Source of the DNA: an uncultured Spirochaetaceae bacterium | GTDB lineage: Bacteria; Spirochaetota; Spirochaetia; Sphaerochaetales; Sphaerochaetaceae | Reading direction: 5' to 3' | Length of the DNA stretch: 32,644 nt | NCBI GenBank assembly: GCA_944392975.1 | Contig: CALXYN010000022.1 | Span: 1 to 32,644 of the forward strand | Notes under the pieces: model-generated | Told to the model about the DNA's origin: nothing | Database searches by the model: none | The model's input: the letters and a program-made list of their open reading frames with translations, nothing else | Shown here: in pieces, positions 3,716 to 26,664 of the stretch | Layout: the number at the start of each line of letters is the position of its first letter | How positions within the stretch are numbered: the stretch's first letter is position 1 | Position numbers and translations under genes: made by a program

Positions 3716-4405
3716 ATGGATTGTGTTTACAAAATGGGCAATCTGAGAATCGTGGATCTTACAAAGACCCTTGACCCTGCTACTGAGACCAGAAGATGTC
3801 ATCTCTATCGTTTCAATACAGGTGGACCAATCCCTGATTTTCACACGATCATGGACCTCACAAGCCATCTTGGAACTCATTGCGAGTGTCCGTATCATCA
3901 TGATGACAACTGGCCAAGCGTTGCAGAGCTTCCTCTGACAACATTCTTTGGACGTGCAATATATGTGACAATCCCAGATGCTGCTCCTAACAGCCATATC
4001 ACAAAGGAGATGCTTGACAAGTACTGCCTTCCGAAGATGAAGGATGATTCAATTGTCATTATCGATAGCCCTTACAAGCTCACACCTTTTACTCCTAAGA
4101 CAAACACCGCAGAAGACAAGAGACTCTTTGTAAACGGGGAGACTGCTGAGTGGTTCAAGGAACATAAGGCAAAATGTGTAGGATTCGGCGATGGCGTTTC
4201 CATTGAGAACTGCAATGAGGATGTAAAGCCATTCCATGACATTCTTCTTGCTGAAAACATCGTATTCCTTGAAGTTTTGAAGAATCTCGACAAGCTTGAG
4301 AAGGATGTATTCTTCATGAGCTATGCACCGCTTCCGATACTCGGTCTTGATTCCTGCCCTGTAAGAGCATATGCAATTGAAGGTCTTGCAGAGTTCGATA
4401 ACTGA
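3716..4405 (+). CDS. cyclase-family metal-dependent hydrolase (COG1878, kynurenine formamidase-like fold)
   Basis: Protein of 229 residues with the family signature 'HLGTHCECPYHH' (residues about 56-67), matching HxGTHxDxPxH, whose His and acidic residues bind metal in kynurenine formamidase and relatives. In place of the usual Asp after GTH there is Cys-Glu-Cys, a possible ligand change. The start follows AAAGGAG. It is the first gene of an operon with a PanE-like dehydrogenase and a LacI regulator. Family members open cyclic amides, lactones or act on isatin and N-formylkynurenine; a lactone or sugar-acid derivative would fit the context, but the substrate is unknown. Confidence 0.8.
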   Translation: MDCVYKMGNLRIVDLTKTLDPATETRRCHLYRFNTGGPIPDFHTIMDLTSHLGTHCECPYHHDDNWPSVAELPLTTFFGRAIYVTIPDAAPNSHITKEMLDKYCLPKMKDDSIVIIDSPYKLTPFTPKTNTAEDKRLFVNGETAEWFKEHKAKCVGFGDGVSIENCNEDVKPFHDILLAENIVFLEVLKNLDKLEKDVFFMSYAPLPILGLDSCPVRAYAIEGLAEFDN

Positions 4406-21071: not shown

Positions 21072-24000
21072 ATGGGCAGAAAAACAGGGCTACTGCTTGC
21101 AAATGTTTATCAAGGGGCAAGCCGGGCGATGTGGAGATACGCTTCCGAGCTATCAAGGCATCATGAAGATGATGCTCTGATAATCATCCCGGGAGGCCGT
21201 CTTGGCTTTCTTGGATCGAGCGAATATCTGAGAAACAGTATCTATGAACTTGCCGGAAGTGCTTCCCTCGATGGAGCGATGATATGGTCCTCTTCCCTGA
21301 CAGGAGCTGAGGGTGTTGAAGCTGTCTCCTCCTTCGTCAAAGGTATTGCAGAGCAGCTTCCTGTCGTATCAATGTGCATGACAATTCCGGGAATACCTTC
21401 CGTGGATTTCGATGCCTATACAGGCATATACAGTGCAGTGAAGCACTTTATAACAATCCATTCAAAAACGAAGATTGCGTTTATCAGAGGGCCTAGAAAT
21501 CATAAAAGTGCGGAAGCTCGATACAAAGCATATCTCGATGCCCTCAGCGATTCCGGTATACCGATAAATGAGGAGTTAATCACCACCCCTCGTTCCTGGA
21601 GTGATGGTGCTGCAGCTGCACGAGAGCTTATTCTTGAGCGGAAACTCAAAGCCGGAGAGGACTTTGAGGCAGTCGTTGCTGCATCTGACCTGCTTTTACT
21701 TGGAGCTGATTCCATTTTCCGGGAAAATGATATCTCTATCCCTGAGGATATCGGGATAGCCGGGTTTAATGACAATGAGGAGAATCAGCTTCTTGATGTC
21801 GAACTGACAACAGTGAGAATGCCTATCCGGAAAATTCTTGAGACCTCATTCCTGATGCTTTCTGGAATCAGTATGGATAATTCCACCCAGCCTCCATCGA
21901 TAGTTCTTCCTTCGGATTTCATTATCCGCCGTTCCTGCGGCTGTGTGGACAGTCTTGGCGGTATTGATAACGCCCGGCATGTAATAAAGGATGAAGACAG
22001 TCTTGATTCCTGGCTTAGAAATTATCTTGGTGATGATACTGCGTTCCTTTCATTGCAGAAGATGCTTGAGTACGTCTTTACAGATAATGCAGTTGATCCG
22101 AGAACCGTAACAGATGCTGTCTCCAGCTATTTTGACAGTGGTGCGGAGGCCTCCACGATACTTGAGGCAATGAGCTGGAGTGAGGAAATCCTTGGTAAAA
22201 AAGAAAGGGTTCCAGGACACCGCGATTACCTTTTCTCTCGCATCGCACATGGAAGCAGAAGACTTTATGCAAGAGAACAGCAGAGACTTGGAGAAGTCTC
22301 CCGTATCCTCGATACATTTAAAACGAGCCTTTTAGCTGCAAGATCCTATTCAGCACTGCCACTGATTATGCAGTCACTCTTTCCATCAATGGGTATAACA
22401 GGAGCATTATTGATGCTGTATGAGGATTTCCATTATACGAAGATGCTCGGGGGTTTCGCCGCTGACAGAATATATACAGACAGCATACGGTTTCCTCGTA
22501 ATCTCATTGTTCCTGAGTCCCTTTCTTCTTTTATAGATAAAGGAACATTCATCGTCGAGCCTCTGTTTTATGAGAATCAGGAACTTGGCTATATCCTCAT
22601 AGCCACAGCGTGGTGCGAAAGCCATGTGCTTGAGGATGTGAGGGCAGCACTCTCTTCAGCGATAAAAGGAATAAGCCTTACAGAAGTTGCTCAGAAAGCC
22701 GCTGAAAGCGCAGAAGAAGGAGAGAGAAAAGCAGGAGAGTTCTATGCCAGTGTCTCCGAAGCCTTGAGAGGTCCTCTTTCATCAATGCATAAAATGCTTT
22801 CATCAAAGGGTAGGGTTCCCCGGGAGAAGATGACGGAAGAAGTGAGAAAGGCTGAACAGATGCTCTCCCTCTCGCTTGCTGAATTCGGCGAACTCGATAT
22901 CGAGAAGGCCCTTGTGCCGCTAAAGAGTTTTGCAGAAAGTCTCGAGTCATCACTTTCTGCAGTTGTCACAAAACCGGAGGAGCTGCCATCAATCGAGATG
23001 GATGAGGAGAGAATCTCAGAACTTGTCACATTGATATCCTCTGTCATCTCTCCTGATTCTCCACCATGCATTTCATTTAGTCTTGCTGAAGACGGTGTTG
23101 TCATTGAAATAAAAGGCAATGCGGAAAAACTTTCAGAGAATCCTGCGTGGAAGCTTGTTGCGCGTATATCCGTGCATCATGGTTTTGAAGTATACACATC
23201 TGAAAATTCTGCATCCTTCAAGCTTCCTTATCCCACTGTTTCAGGACGGGCAGGGAAGGCTGATAGCGGTCCAGCTGTATGGCTTTCCGATGAGGATGTG
23301 CCGGTATCGATAAAGCATCTTGCTCCTAAGCAGATTGCTCTTTCTGATGCAGAGGAGATTTTCCGCATGGATAAACTCCCTTCTGTGATAGCCTGTTCTC
23401 AACCAGAGCTTTCACGTTCCGGGGCTGCTGCTTTGAGGGTAATGAAAAAACATCGTTCATCACGCCAGCTTTCATTCATGCTATTTTCTGCAGAAATAGC
23501 TTCTTCTCTGTCTTCTTCACTGGAATATATACGTTCAGCCTCTGATGACGCCATCATTTATATGGCTTACTTCAATCCTGTACTGGAGAAGATGCTCATG
23601 GATTTCGGGCGTGTAGAAGAGAAATCTCCAGAAGATATACTTGTAAGCACAGAGGGAAAAACTCGCTTCATTGTACTTTCTTCTGTTGAAATAATTCCGT
23701 CTCTTCGCCGTGTGAAACGCTTTTCTTCTGTTCCTGTCCTTGTTGTGAAAGACTCCTTTACAGAAGAGGATATTGCTGCAATTGAAGATGTTCCAGGTGT
23801 CATTATTGCAAATACAGAGATACTCGAGGCCCCTGCATTCACAGAACGTCTCGTTTCCATACTTGCAGGAAGCGGTATCCTGCCTCCTCTGACAGGCTCT
23901 CTTGTAAAACATGCAATTGCTTTCCTGAACAGAAGGCTTTCAAAACCGATTTCACGCTGGCAGATTGCCGAGAGCGTGAATATCAGCGAGGATTATCTGA

Positions 24001-24209
24001 CAAGAATCTTCAGGCGTGAAATGGGCCTTTCTCCATGGGATTATCTCACAAGATGCAGAGTGGGTGTGGCATCGGATCTTCTCAGAAGAACAGGTGCCCC
24101 TCTTTCTGAAATAGCTCAGGCCTCCGGCTTCCAGGATCAGGCATATTTCAATCGTGTCTTCAGAAGAATCAAAGGATGCACACCAGGACACTACAGGCAA
24201 TCTGTATAA
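21072..24209 (+). CDS. large chimeric regulator: LacI-type sensor, degenerate histidine kinase, AraC HTH
   Basis: Soluble protein of 1045 residues without an N-terminal HTH, signal peptide or membrane segment. Residues 1 to about 285 form a LacI/periplasmic-binding-like sensor that ends in 'RRSCGC' (Cys289, Cys291), a sign-off seen in other sensor fusions. A GAF-like stretch follows (about 395-550). Residues 557-569, 'FYASVSEALRGPL', align with the histidine-kinase H-box FxxxxSHExRTPL, but Glu563 replaces the phosphate-accepting His. 'NPAWKLVARISVHHGF' (690-705) recalls the end of a kinase ATPase domain without its glycines. Two receiver-like stretches follow, and an AraC double HTH at about 945-1043. 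It is divergent from uxaB and probably senses a pectin sugar. No clear Shine-Dalgarno marks the start. Confidence 0.82.
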   Translation: MGRKTGLLLANVYQGASRAMWRYASELSRHHEDDALIIIPGGRLGFLGSSEYLRNSIYELAGSASLDGAMIWSSSLTGAEGVEAVSSFVKGIAEQLPVVSMCMTIPGIPSVDFDAYTGIYSAVKHFITIHSKTKIAFIRGPRNHKSAEARYKAYLDALSDSGIPINEELITTPRSWSDGAAAARELILERKLKAGEDFEAVVAASDLLLLGADSIFRENDISIPEDIGIAGFNDNEENQLLDVELTTVRMPIRKILETSFLMLSGISMDNSTQPPSIVLPSDFIIRRSCGCVDSLGGIDNARHVIKDEDSLDSWLRNYLGDDTAFLSLQKMLEYVFTDNAVDPRTVTDAVSSYFDSGAEASTILEAMSWSEEILGKKERVPGHRDYLFSRIAHGSRRLYAREQQRLGEVSRILDTFKTSLLAARSYSALPLIMQSLFPSMGITGALLMLYEDFHYTKMLGGFAADRIYTDSIRFPRNLIVPESLSSFIDKGTFIVEPLFYENQELGYILIATAWCESHVLEDVRAALSSAIKGISLTEVAQKAAESAEEGERKAGEFYASVSEALRGPLSSMHKMLSSKGRVPREKMTEEVRKAEQMLSLSLAEFGELDIEKALVPLKSFAESLESSLSAVVTKPEELPSIEMDEERISELVTLISSVISPDSPPCISFSLAEDGVVIEIKGNAEKLSENPAWKLVARISVHHGFEVYTSENSASFKLPYPTVSGRAGKADSGPAVWLSDEDVPVSIKHLAPKQIALSDAEEIFRMDKLPSVIACSQPELSRSGAAALRVMKKHRSSRQLSFMLFSAEIASSLSSSLEYIRSASDDAIIYMAYFNPVLEKMLMDFGRVEEKSPEDILVSTEGKTRFIVLSSVEIIPSLRRVKRFSSVPVLVVKDSFTEEDIAAIEDVPGVIIANTEILEAPAFTERLVSILAGSGILPPLTGSLVKHAIAFLNRRLSKPISRWQIAESVNISEDYLTRIFRREMGLSPWDYLTRCRVGVASDLLRRTGAPLSEIAQASGFQDQAYFNRVFRRIKGCTPGHYRQSV

Positions 24210-24250: not shown

Positions 24251-24280
24251 TTGACAATTTTCTACTGGGGGGGGTAGAGT
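24251..24280 (+). promoter_or_regulatory. promoter with an eight-G tract in the spacer (possible phase-variation switch)
   Basis: A perfect -35 TTGACA (24251-24256) and a -10 TAGAGT (24275-24280, 4 of 6) are separated by 18 bases. Eight of these are an unbroken run of G (24267-24274) touching the -10. Loss of one G would give the optimal 17-base spacing; gain of one would give 19. Slipped-strand changes in such tracts switch surface-protein promoters in other bacteria, including poly-G tracts at tpr promoters of Treponema pallidum. The gene controlled is a large lipoprotein. Confidence 0.6.
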
Positions 24281-24312
24281 AGTTGCAGATAAACTAAGGA
24301 GAGGATTGAGAT

Positions 24313-26664
24313 ATGAGAAAGAAATCAATTCTTATGGTGTGCATTTCTGCACTCATAGCTCTTGCTGTGTTTGTGGGATGTGATAATGCACCGGTATATC
24401 CGGCATGGCCAACTGGTGGATATGTTTCACAGGTTGGAGATGTTCTCAATGGGCAGGCTTTCGATGCTTCAAAGTTCCAGGTAGTTGCTACATACCTTGA
24501 CAATAGCAAGAAGGTAATCGATGCTTCTGTTGTTTTTGAAGATGTCGACAAATCTGGAAATGTAACGGCAGGTGATACGGTTTCTTCTACAGTAGGAACA
24601 GACTATTATGGAAGCCTAGTTACTGCAACTGGAACTGTATCTGTATACAACATCGACAGTATTGATTTTACAGTTGCTGAAGGTGTTGATTACACTAGTC
24701 TTGAAGCAGGTGACTTGGCAGTAACTGCAAATTACTACAACGGAAAAGGTGAACTCGCAGCGATGCCACTTTCAAGCACAGAATATACAGTTTCTGTAAG
24801 TTCTGAGGCTGGTGAAGAAGATACAACAGTTTACACAATCACAGTCACAACAAGTGTTGGTGGAAACGTTAAGAGTTCTGAAAAAGTATCTGTTGCTAAT
24901 GAACCAGAAGTTCTTGGAACAATTGTTGGAATTACAACAATTACACCAAATAACTATTCTGTACCAGGATTCCTTTATGATGAGCTTCCTGCAATTGATG
25001 CTTCGAAGTTCAGAATTGGTGTTCTTCTTGAAGATGGAGATGCTACTTCTGGAACAGTTGACGGTGATACAATCGAAGGTCTTGAACTTGCATTTGTTGA
25101 TCAGACAACAGGTGCTGTTCTTGATAAGGCTCTTGATGAGTATGATTTCAGAAATGCAACTGACATTGGTGTAAGAGCTACATTCGAAGGCAAATCTATT
25201 TATACAGCAGATGCAATTACAGTCGATAAGGCAACTCTTACTGTTGAGTACAAGGGTGCTGGAATTGCAGAGAATGCAACACTTCCTGAGATTATTCCTG
25301 CAGATTACCGTGTTCTTCTTACTGTTGGTAGTAATAAGGCTGTTGACATCACAGAAGAAGCAAATCTTTACTATGCTGAGGGAGATTGGACAGCAACAAC
25401 TGACAAGACAATGACAGCAGATGGAATTTTTGTAGTTGCTTCTTACATGGGAATCCGCAATTCTACAAAGATTAAAGCAGGTGAGGCAGCCCCTGTAACT
25501 GTTGAATCTGTTGAGTTTACAATGGCAAAGGACTGGGCAGCTCCTGCAAAGCAGTACTACAAAGCACTTCCGCCAATTGAGGTATCTGATGTTGCTAATG
25601 TTGTTGTGACAAAGAGTGATGGAACTGTAAATGAATACTCATCAATTGTTGGTAACGATTCATTTGGTATTGCTTTCTATACAGCAGAAGGCGTAGAACT
25701 TACTGGCAAGTCAGGAGATAATGGTTTTGATACTCTTGTTAATGCGGATTCTATTCTTGTTGGTCTCCAGCTTGGTGATGAAGTATTCTATCAGGAATAT
25801 GACCTTACAACAGCTGTAGCAGAAGATGTTGAGCTGTATGCTGATTATGGTGACGTTGCATACTATGGAGCACCTGTAGACTGGACAATTAAGCTCGTAA
25901 ATAATGATGGCGTTGTTGATCCGGATTACCAGGGTGCATACACAGCATATGTTGTTGCAAATTCCAAGGCTACAAAGACGGATCTCCCTGCAACACTTTC
26001 TACTGAAGCTTCCTATAAGGTAGCAGTTGCTCTTAATGGTACTCTTAAAGAGTCTGACGATGTAACCCTTAAGGCTGGTAGCGAGTGGTATGAACTTGAT
26101 AGTAATTTTGCTGTAACATATACAGGCGATAAGATTTACATCGATGATGACCTTAACATTACTAAGACATCTTTTGATGTAACAGGTTATACATACCATG
26201 GAACAAAGACAGAAGAAGCGGCAAAACTTTCTGCTGATTCTGTAACCTTTGTTACAGGAGAGACAGTTTCTGCTACAAATACTGTATATGTAACTGTTAA
26301 ATATATTGGAAAAGATCTGGAGTCACACAGTGAAGTAGTTGCAGTGTCTGTTAATGGTACTTCTTGGGGTGAAGCACCAACGGCTACTCTTGTTTGGGCA
26401 GAAACAGAATCAAATGTAACTAGTATTCCAGCTGGAACCTATAATGTTTCTGACTTCATTGTAAAAGGATATGTAGAACATGGAGATTCTCCTGTAACCC
26501 TTATTGTAAAGCCACAGAATGGTTCTGAGGTTGCTGCAGGAACATTTACAGTCAATCAATACGAAACTGTAACATTCTCATATAGTTATGTTGGAAAGAG
26601 TGGAGAAGTTGGTCCTGTAACTTTGGAGACATTTACTGCAGCAGCACCAGCCGCAGCAAACTAA
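24313..26664 (+). CDS. large lipoprotein with tandem Ig-like modules
   Basis: Protein of 783 residues. The signal peptide has the loose spirochaete lipobox 'VFVGC', with lipidation expected at Cys23; Cys10 and Cys23 are the only cysteines. The mature chain is acidic, rich in Thr, Val and Ala, and reads as seven or eight divergent beta-sandwich modules of about 90-105 residues. Several start with a pattern like 'SIDFT' or 'SVEFT' and end in a 'V.V.Y.GK' type strand, as in bacterial Ig-like (Big) domains. No enzymatic motif is seen. Codon choice favours T or A endings more than the neighbours. A surface or adhesin-like role, perhaps glycan binding, is an inference. Expression may vary through the poly-G promoter. 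Confidence 0.75.
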   Translation: MRKKSILMVCISALIALAVFVGCDNAPVYPAWPTGGYVSQVGDVLNGQAFDASKFQVVATYLDNSKKVIDASVVFEDVDKSGNVTAGDTVSSTVGTDYYGSLVTATGTVSVYNIDSIDFTVAEGVDYTSLEAGDLAVTANYYNGKGELAAMPLSSTEYTVSVSSEAGEEDTTVYTITVTTSVGGNVKSSEKVSVANEPEVLGTIVGITTITPNNYSVPGFLYDELPAIDASKFRIGVLLEDGDATSGTVDGDTIEGLELAFVDQTTGAVLDKALDEYDFRNATDIGVRATFEGKSIYTADAITVDKATLTVEYKGAGIAENATLPEIIPADYRVLLTVGSNKAVDITEEANLYYAEGDWTATTDKTMTADGIFVVASYMGIRNSTKIKAGEAAPVTVESVEFTMAKDWAAPAKQYYKALPPIEVSDVANVVVTKSDGTVNEYSSIVGNDSFGIAFYTAEGVELTGKSGDNGFDTLVNADSILVGLQLGDEVFYQEYDLTTAVAEDVELYADYGDVAYYGAPVDWTIKLVNNDGVVDPDYQGAYTAYVVANSKATKTDLPATLSTEASYKVAVALNGTLKESDDVTLKAGSEWYELDSNFAVTYTGDKIYIDDDLNITKTSFDVTGYTYHGTKTEEAAKLSADSVTFVTGETVSATNTVYVTVKYIGKDLESHSEVVAVSVNGTSWGEAPTATLVWAETESNVTSIPAGTYNVSDFIVKGYVEHGDSPVTLIVKPQNGSEVAAGTFTVNQYETVTFSYSYVGKSGEVGPVTLETFTAAAPAAAN

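Follow-up and report, generated by a model that had tools for sequence, protein, structure and literature searches.

Can a run of eight guanines, set between the -35 and -10 boxes of a large lipoprotein gene, switch that gene up and down? The window in which the run lies, by which we mean the whole stretch of 32,644 nucleotides analysed here, is contig C22 of a fragmented MAG of 2.07 Mb in 109 contigs. On its forward strand a -35 element TTGACA (24251-24256; 6/6 match) is followed by the fixed part of the spacer, the 10-nt ATTTTCTACT (24257-24266), for which 90 upstream contexts give the genus consensus AAWNNNWACC/T. Then come the G8 tract, which forms the variable part (24267-24274), and the -10 element TAGAGT (24275-24280), a box of the TAnnnT class for which the genus consensus is TAGnCT. 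The full spacer is ATTTTCTACT plus GGGGGGGG, now 18 nt (24257-24274), and direct reading agrees to the base with the boxes and spacer given in the preliminary description. Transcription is predicted to start at the A at 24287, since an A lies exactly 7 nt past the -10 box at 66% of the sites; a ribosome binding site, AAGGAGAGG, occupies 24296-24304, and the ATG at 24313 opens the gene (24313-26664) for a 783-aa protein. Its signal peptide ends in LAVFVGC, with the lipobox cysteine at Cys23, so its earlier designation as a lipoprotein holds. The promoter scored 10/12 in a consensus scan and was the top site of the region, but the scan returned 6 sites in the region against 13.8 expected from shuffles, that is, no excess. 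The promoter match alone is thus no evidence, and it is comparison that carries the weight.

The window's own genome contains just 14 G or C runs of at least 8, each of which was read individually. Ten of them lie between a TTGAC(A/T) and a TAnnnT box; the site in the window is not a lone case. The spacer tracts are poly-G on contigs C3, C17, C18, C22, C31, C35, C76, C80 and C86, and poly-C on C10, where a C9 run sits in a 17-bp spacer. A lipoprotein ORF is found downstream of nine of the ten, and the tenth, on C18, precedes a matching lipoprotein start that is cut by the contig end. Elsewhere, C14 carries ACGGGGGGGGTAAAGT, half of the motif, before an exported-protein gene and without a recognisable -35 at the proper distance, and C24 has a G9 after a rubredoxin-like ORF. 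The G runs of at least 7 in this genome (n = 20) have lengths of 7 (six), 8 (three), 9 (eight), 10 (two) and 11 (one). Runs of at least 9 make up 11 of these 20, against about 5% expected from base composition (p ~ 4e-10), and TTGACW stands at one of 11 upstream offsets in 9 of the 14 long runs (chance ~7e-18). The TTGACA hexamer, which was not part of the query, precedes most of the long G tracts. Some G7 runs were rejected as candidates: those on C54 are, by the look of the sequence, in tRNA genes, and those on C4, C21 and C98 lie outside any promoter of the switch type.

The same arrangement was searched for as TTGACA-N4-16-G6+-TAnnnT, with the reversed pattern as control, in 48 genomes of the genus, which is that of Candidatus Ornithospirochaeta and includes Candidatus Ornithospirochaeta stercoravium, stercoripullorum and other uncultured Spirochaetales and Spirochaetaceae MAGs. 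The module was present at 226 sites in 33 of the 48 genomes and absent from 15, while the reversed control gave 0 sites; it recurs in independent MAGs of different projects. A few G6 matches among the 226 are probably due to chance. Chance on a larger scale, a G run that happens to fall next to a fortuitous consensus match or an artefact of assembly, would suit a fragmented MAG and a region in which promoter-consensus matches do not rise above shuffles, but it is refuted by these 226 sites against 0 and their recurrence, by the run-length and offset statistics, and by the lipoprotein targeting described below; we give it practically no credence.

Tract length ranges from 6 to 12 over the 226 sites, with a mode of 9 (123 sites), and a spacer leader of 10 nt is commonest (123/226). 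The modal spacer is 19 (101/226), followed by 18 (52/226), and not 17. Two positions of the -10 box that the query did not impose are biased, position 3 being G in 155 and position 5 being C in 138 of the 226. Further features shared beyond the query are an A/T-rich stretch covering positions -9 to -4 before the -35 box with a C at -1, (T/A)AC(C/G) before the tract, TAGnCT as the -10 box, an A at +1, a ribosome site rich in purines and a start codon that in most cases falls 29-37 nt past the -10 box. The mirror arrangement, with poly-C in the spacer, is rare (6 sites in the 48 genomes, against 226 with poly-G), though either strand would alter the spacing equally; common descent and a requirement that the G run lie on the non-template strand are candidate reasons for this bias.

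The genes behind the module are of one kind. Where enough sequence was available to judge by a strict lipobox (n = 82), a lipobox protein was encoded at 78 of the 82 readable sites of the genus, against 17 of 181 other ORFs of the same stretches (p = 2e-44). When 77 target proteins are aligned, near-invariance is confined to Met1 and the lipobox Cys. Most are domain-free; the domains found, a few of each, are Big_3 (4 of the 77), GLUG, LRR_5, pectate-lyase-like adhesive, F5/8 type C and carbohydrate-binding domains. From the signal peptide and lipobox read in the sequences, the products are presumed to be surface-exposed.

Tract length was then compared in other copies of the module, between promoters of the same genome and between orthologues of sister species. 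Of 42 promoter pairs from the same genome that agree in every base from -35 to -10 outside the tract, 24 differ in the number of G. Between the genomes G019 and G032, four orthologous promoters with upstream flanks 85-99.6% identical carry G10/9, 9/10, 8/10 and 9/10, one further pair keeps G9 with a spacer of 17/18, and a G6 tract, which serves as a control, is unchanged; in all, 5 of 6 orthologous long tracts are altered in G number or in spacer length. As G019 and G032 belong to two species, the comparison is no proof of variation within a population. Two loci of G032 with an identical 250-bp upstream flank carry G9 and G11, and a pair from G026 and G062 likewise has G9 and G11. The supposition that the tract varies in length is thus borne out at the comparative level, in paralogous and orthologous copies with near-identical flanks. 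In short-read assemblies, one-G differences could be partly technical; technical error is unlikely to be the main cause, given that differences of 8/10, 9/11 and 9/12 also occur and the G6 tract is unchanged. Loss of mismatch repair was considered as the cause of tract instability and rejected, MutS being present in 47 of the 48 genomes of the genus, which gives no sign of a hypermutator background.

Two further long runs of the window's genome lie inside genes, both within signal-peptide codons. The tract on C16 (L012, G9 at 4007) is in frame at G8 and G11 and was assembled at G9; that on C46 (L018, G11 at 2073) is in frame at G9 and G12 and was assembled at G11. The genes encode a lipoprotein and an outer-membrane-type protein, and both reading frames end prematurely at the lengths assembled. 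Read from the codons, these tracts are probable cases of translational phase variation.

These observations bear on whether the G tract could instead be a fixed structural or operator element, recognised by a regulator or acting through the DNA shape of the G run, with changes in length as noise of little effect on expression. The concentration of tract lengths at 9 and the near-constant placing of G on the non-template strand would be expected of such an element; in T. pallidum a CRP homologue binds the tprE, tprG and tprJ promoters alongside poly-G (PMC7864442), and an unrelated viral promoter holds G7 in every copy on six contigs. Against it, long tracts differ between orthologues where the G6 tract and the flanks are conserved, a tract inside the spacer cannot change by 1 bp without altering the spacing and phase of the boxes, and the two coding tracts can act only by frame. 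We consider a fixed element improbable; judged from the sequences, the observed differences fit slippage.

Taken together, the data make it highly probable that the G8 run of the window acts, in the promoter of this surface-type lipoprotein gene, as a switch for phase variation by strand slippage and that it is one of a genus-wide set, and the best-supported reading of the sequence remains the one first proposed, namely that tract length sets the -35/-10 spacing. Single-base changes of the spacer are an established means of tuning sigma-70 promoters. Replication slippage would add or remove G's in the tract, and the distance between the boxes would move with them, in the window to 17, 18 or 19 bp with G7, G8 or G9. 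With RNA polymerase working best near 17 bp, each tract length would have its own level of expression, and a clonal population would become a mixture of expression states. The same stereotyped promoter module, at times with shared signal-peptide sequence, would serve many unrelated lipoproteins in this manner, a few genes using a coding tract instead, and the benefit may be that antigens or adhesins on the surface, or contacts with glycans, vary in the host gut. Both the switching within populations and the effect of length on transcription are to be understood as inferred. On this scale the window, at G8 and 18 bp, would be in an intermediate state, with G7 stronger and G9 weaker. Less favourable to this reading, the -10 boxes of the module match TATAAT poorly, and spacers of 19 and 18 bp prevail in the genus, either because the state captured in most of the consensus genomes is a weak one or because the optimum differs.

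A parallel with the poly-G tracts near the tpr promoters of T. pallidum had been drawn in the preliminary description. The poly-G precedent stands, but the closest counterpart is tp0126, rather than the tpr genes in general: this OmpW homologue, an outer-membrane protein gene likewise of a spirochaete, has its poly-G between the -35 and -10 boxes and is transcribed best when the tract gives a spacing of 17 (PMC7864442). It differs in being a single gene with experimental proof, whereas the module described here, known from sequence, belongs to a different genus and family, has a spacing of mostly 18-19, and precedes several lipoprotein genes per genome and hundreds in the genus. The tprE, tprG and tprJ genes, which need at most 8 G, and tprL, whose tract has 7-11 G within isolates, mostly 9, and where 8G exceeded 10G in an E. 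coli reporter, resemble the module in the position of a G tract near the start of a surface-protein gene and, for tprL, in the modal length of 9 (PMC7864442). Their targets are porin-like OMPs and not lipoproteins, and the tprL tract overlaps the -10 region and leaves the spacing unaffected. The porA gene of N. meningitidis, as cited in PMC7864442, has a poly-G spacer switch of the same type that works best at 17; it is one gene, in an unrelated organism and with an unrelated target.

How did one promoter come to stand before so many unrelated genes? In paralogues of the genome G064 (L102-L110) the first 60 coding nucleotides are about 96% identical, and identity drops to about 32-49% right past the lipobox; many contigs break off 40-150 nt past the tract, within the shared promoter and signal-peptide segment. 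The pattern in G064 suggests, from the sequences, exchange or homogenisation of the promoter together with the signal peptide. Both observations would also be expected if recombination were the main process, with promoter and signal-peptide segments swapped among lipoprotein loci and tract differences as a by-product. Such a reading is left without an explanation for the excess of long G runs, their placement in the spacer and the coding tracts, and in the window's own genome most 5' coding segments are not near-identical (mean 34-48%); we hold it to be rather unlikely as the main explanation. Slippage in the spacer remains our preferred reading. Its extension, that poly-G promoter and signal peptide form a genus-wide exchangeable cassette, recombined before many unrelated lipoproteins so that about ten loci per genome switch randomly, is put forward tentatively, as a possibility to which we give somewhat less than even weight. 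If it is true, the surface of these gut commensals would be combinatorial and individually variable, being set by some ten loci that switch independently. A comparable system is that of the vlp genes of Mycoplasma hyorhinis, a multigene family of lipoproteins whose signal sequences are conserved and whose promoter spacers each contain a homopolymer. There the tract is poly-A and the genes form one local cluster in a wall-less organism, whereas here it is poly-G and the loci are dispersed over the genome.

Beyond the genus, 79 of 395 genomes of the class have a stricter pattern. These belong chiefly to the window's own family and to family f24, where G337 reaches 20 sites; of 125 genomes of the phylum from outside the class, no more than 2 carry it. 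In the other genera the lipoprotein-like share of the readable targets is smaller (17/30). Most spacers are of 15-16 in the Treponema-like genus g76 and also in g29 and g39; these and the 18-19 of the window's genus are both one or two slips off 17. One genome of genus g24 (G392) has spacer tracts of G12-17 with a near-perfect TATAAT and mixed targets, not mainly lipoproteins, and G442, from another class of the phylum, has five sites with the architecture of the module, for which contamination and an independent origin are candidate reasons. The fixed viral G7 tract, all that viral contigs yielded when a second strain of the window's species was looked for, is carried by IMG/VR contigs L206-L211, in a promoter, TTGACAGTTCGATACAGGGGGGGTATATT, with a spacer of 17 that is identical in eight copies on the six contigs; it is followed by GTATCGAAC, the inverse complement of GTTCGATAC. 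It looks like a phage promoter with its operator, unrelated to spirochaetes.

In a search confined to open-licence literature, no report of poly-G switching in Ornithospirochaeta or Sphaerochaeta came up, which is weak evidence of novelty. The mechanism itself is already known; a lipoprotein phasome that spans a genus of uncultured gut spirochaetes and rests on a single promoter module appears to be undescribed. Poly-G promoter switching in spirochaetes has so far been studied in the syphilis agent, which is hard to subject to genetic tests. Here the same logic would operate on a large, stereotyped scale in spirochaetes from the gut of poultry and other animals, with further genera of the class sharing it, and there it can be tested with reads and reporters. 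Surface phase variation may accordingly be an old trait among host-associated spirochaetes and not the specialisation of a single pathogen. For practical use, TTGACA-N7-10-G8-12-TAnnnT offers a simple signature by which candidate phase-variable lipoprotein genes can be picked out in MAGs.

As to the product of the gene in the window, its description as an Ig-like repeat protein is upheld at the level of fold only: a Pfam search of the 783-aa protein gave no domain hit and a sequence search of solved structures gave no match. An AlphaFold2 model (mean pLDDT 82.6) is all-beta and predicts, with fair confidence, a string of beta-sandwich, Ig-like domains. The model matched folds of LigA, S-layer/adhesin, invasin and immunoglobulin types (best Z 7.1), a likeness that, at a Z of about 7, is to be taken as predicted fold resemblance only. 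A homologue in G026 is 41% identical to the protein, and the paralogues in its own genome are weaker. The pectin genes said to lie nearby are only partly borne out, by the presence of a glucuronate isomerase (UxaC) and a GH42 glycosidase. At 21072-24209 the window also encodes a 1045-aa regulator, in which a LacI-type sugar-binding domain lies close to the N-terminus and an AraC helix-turn-helix forms the C-terminus, with a long Pfam-free stretch between the two.
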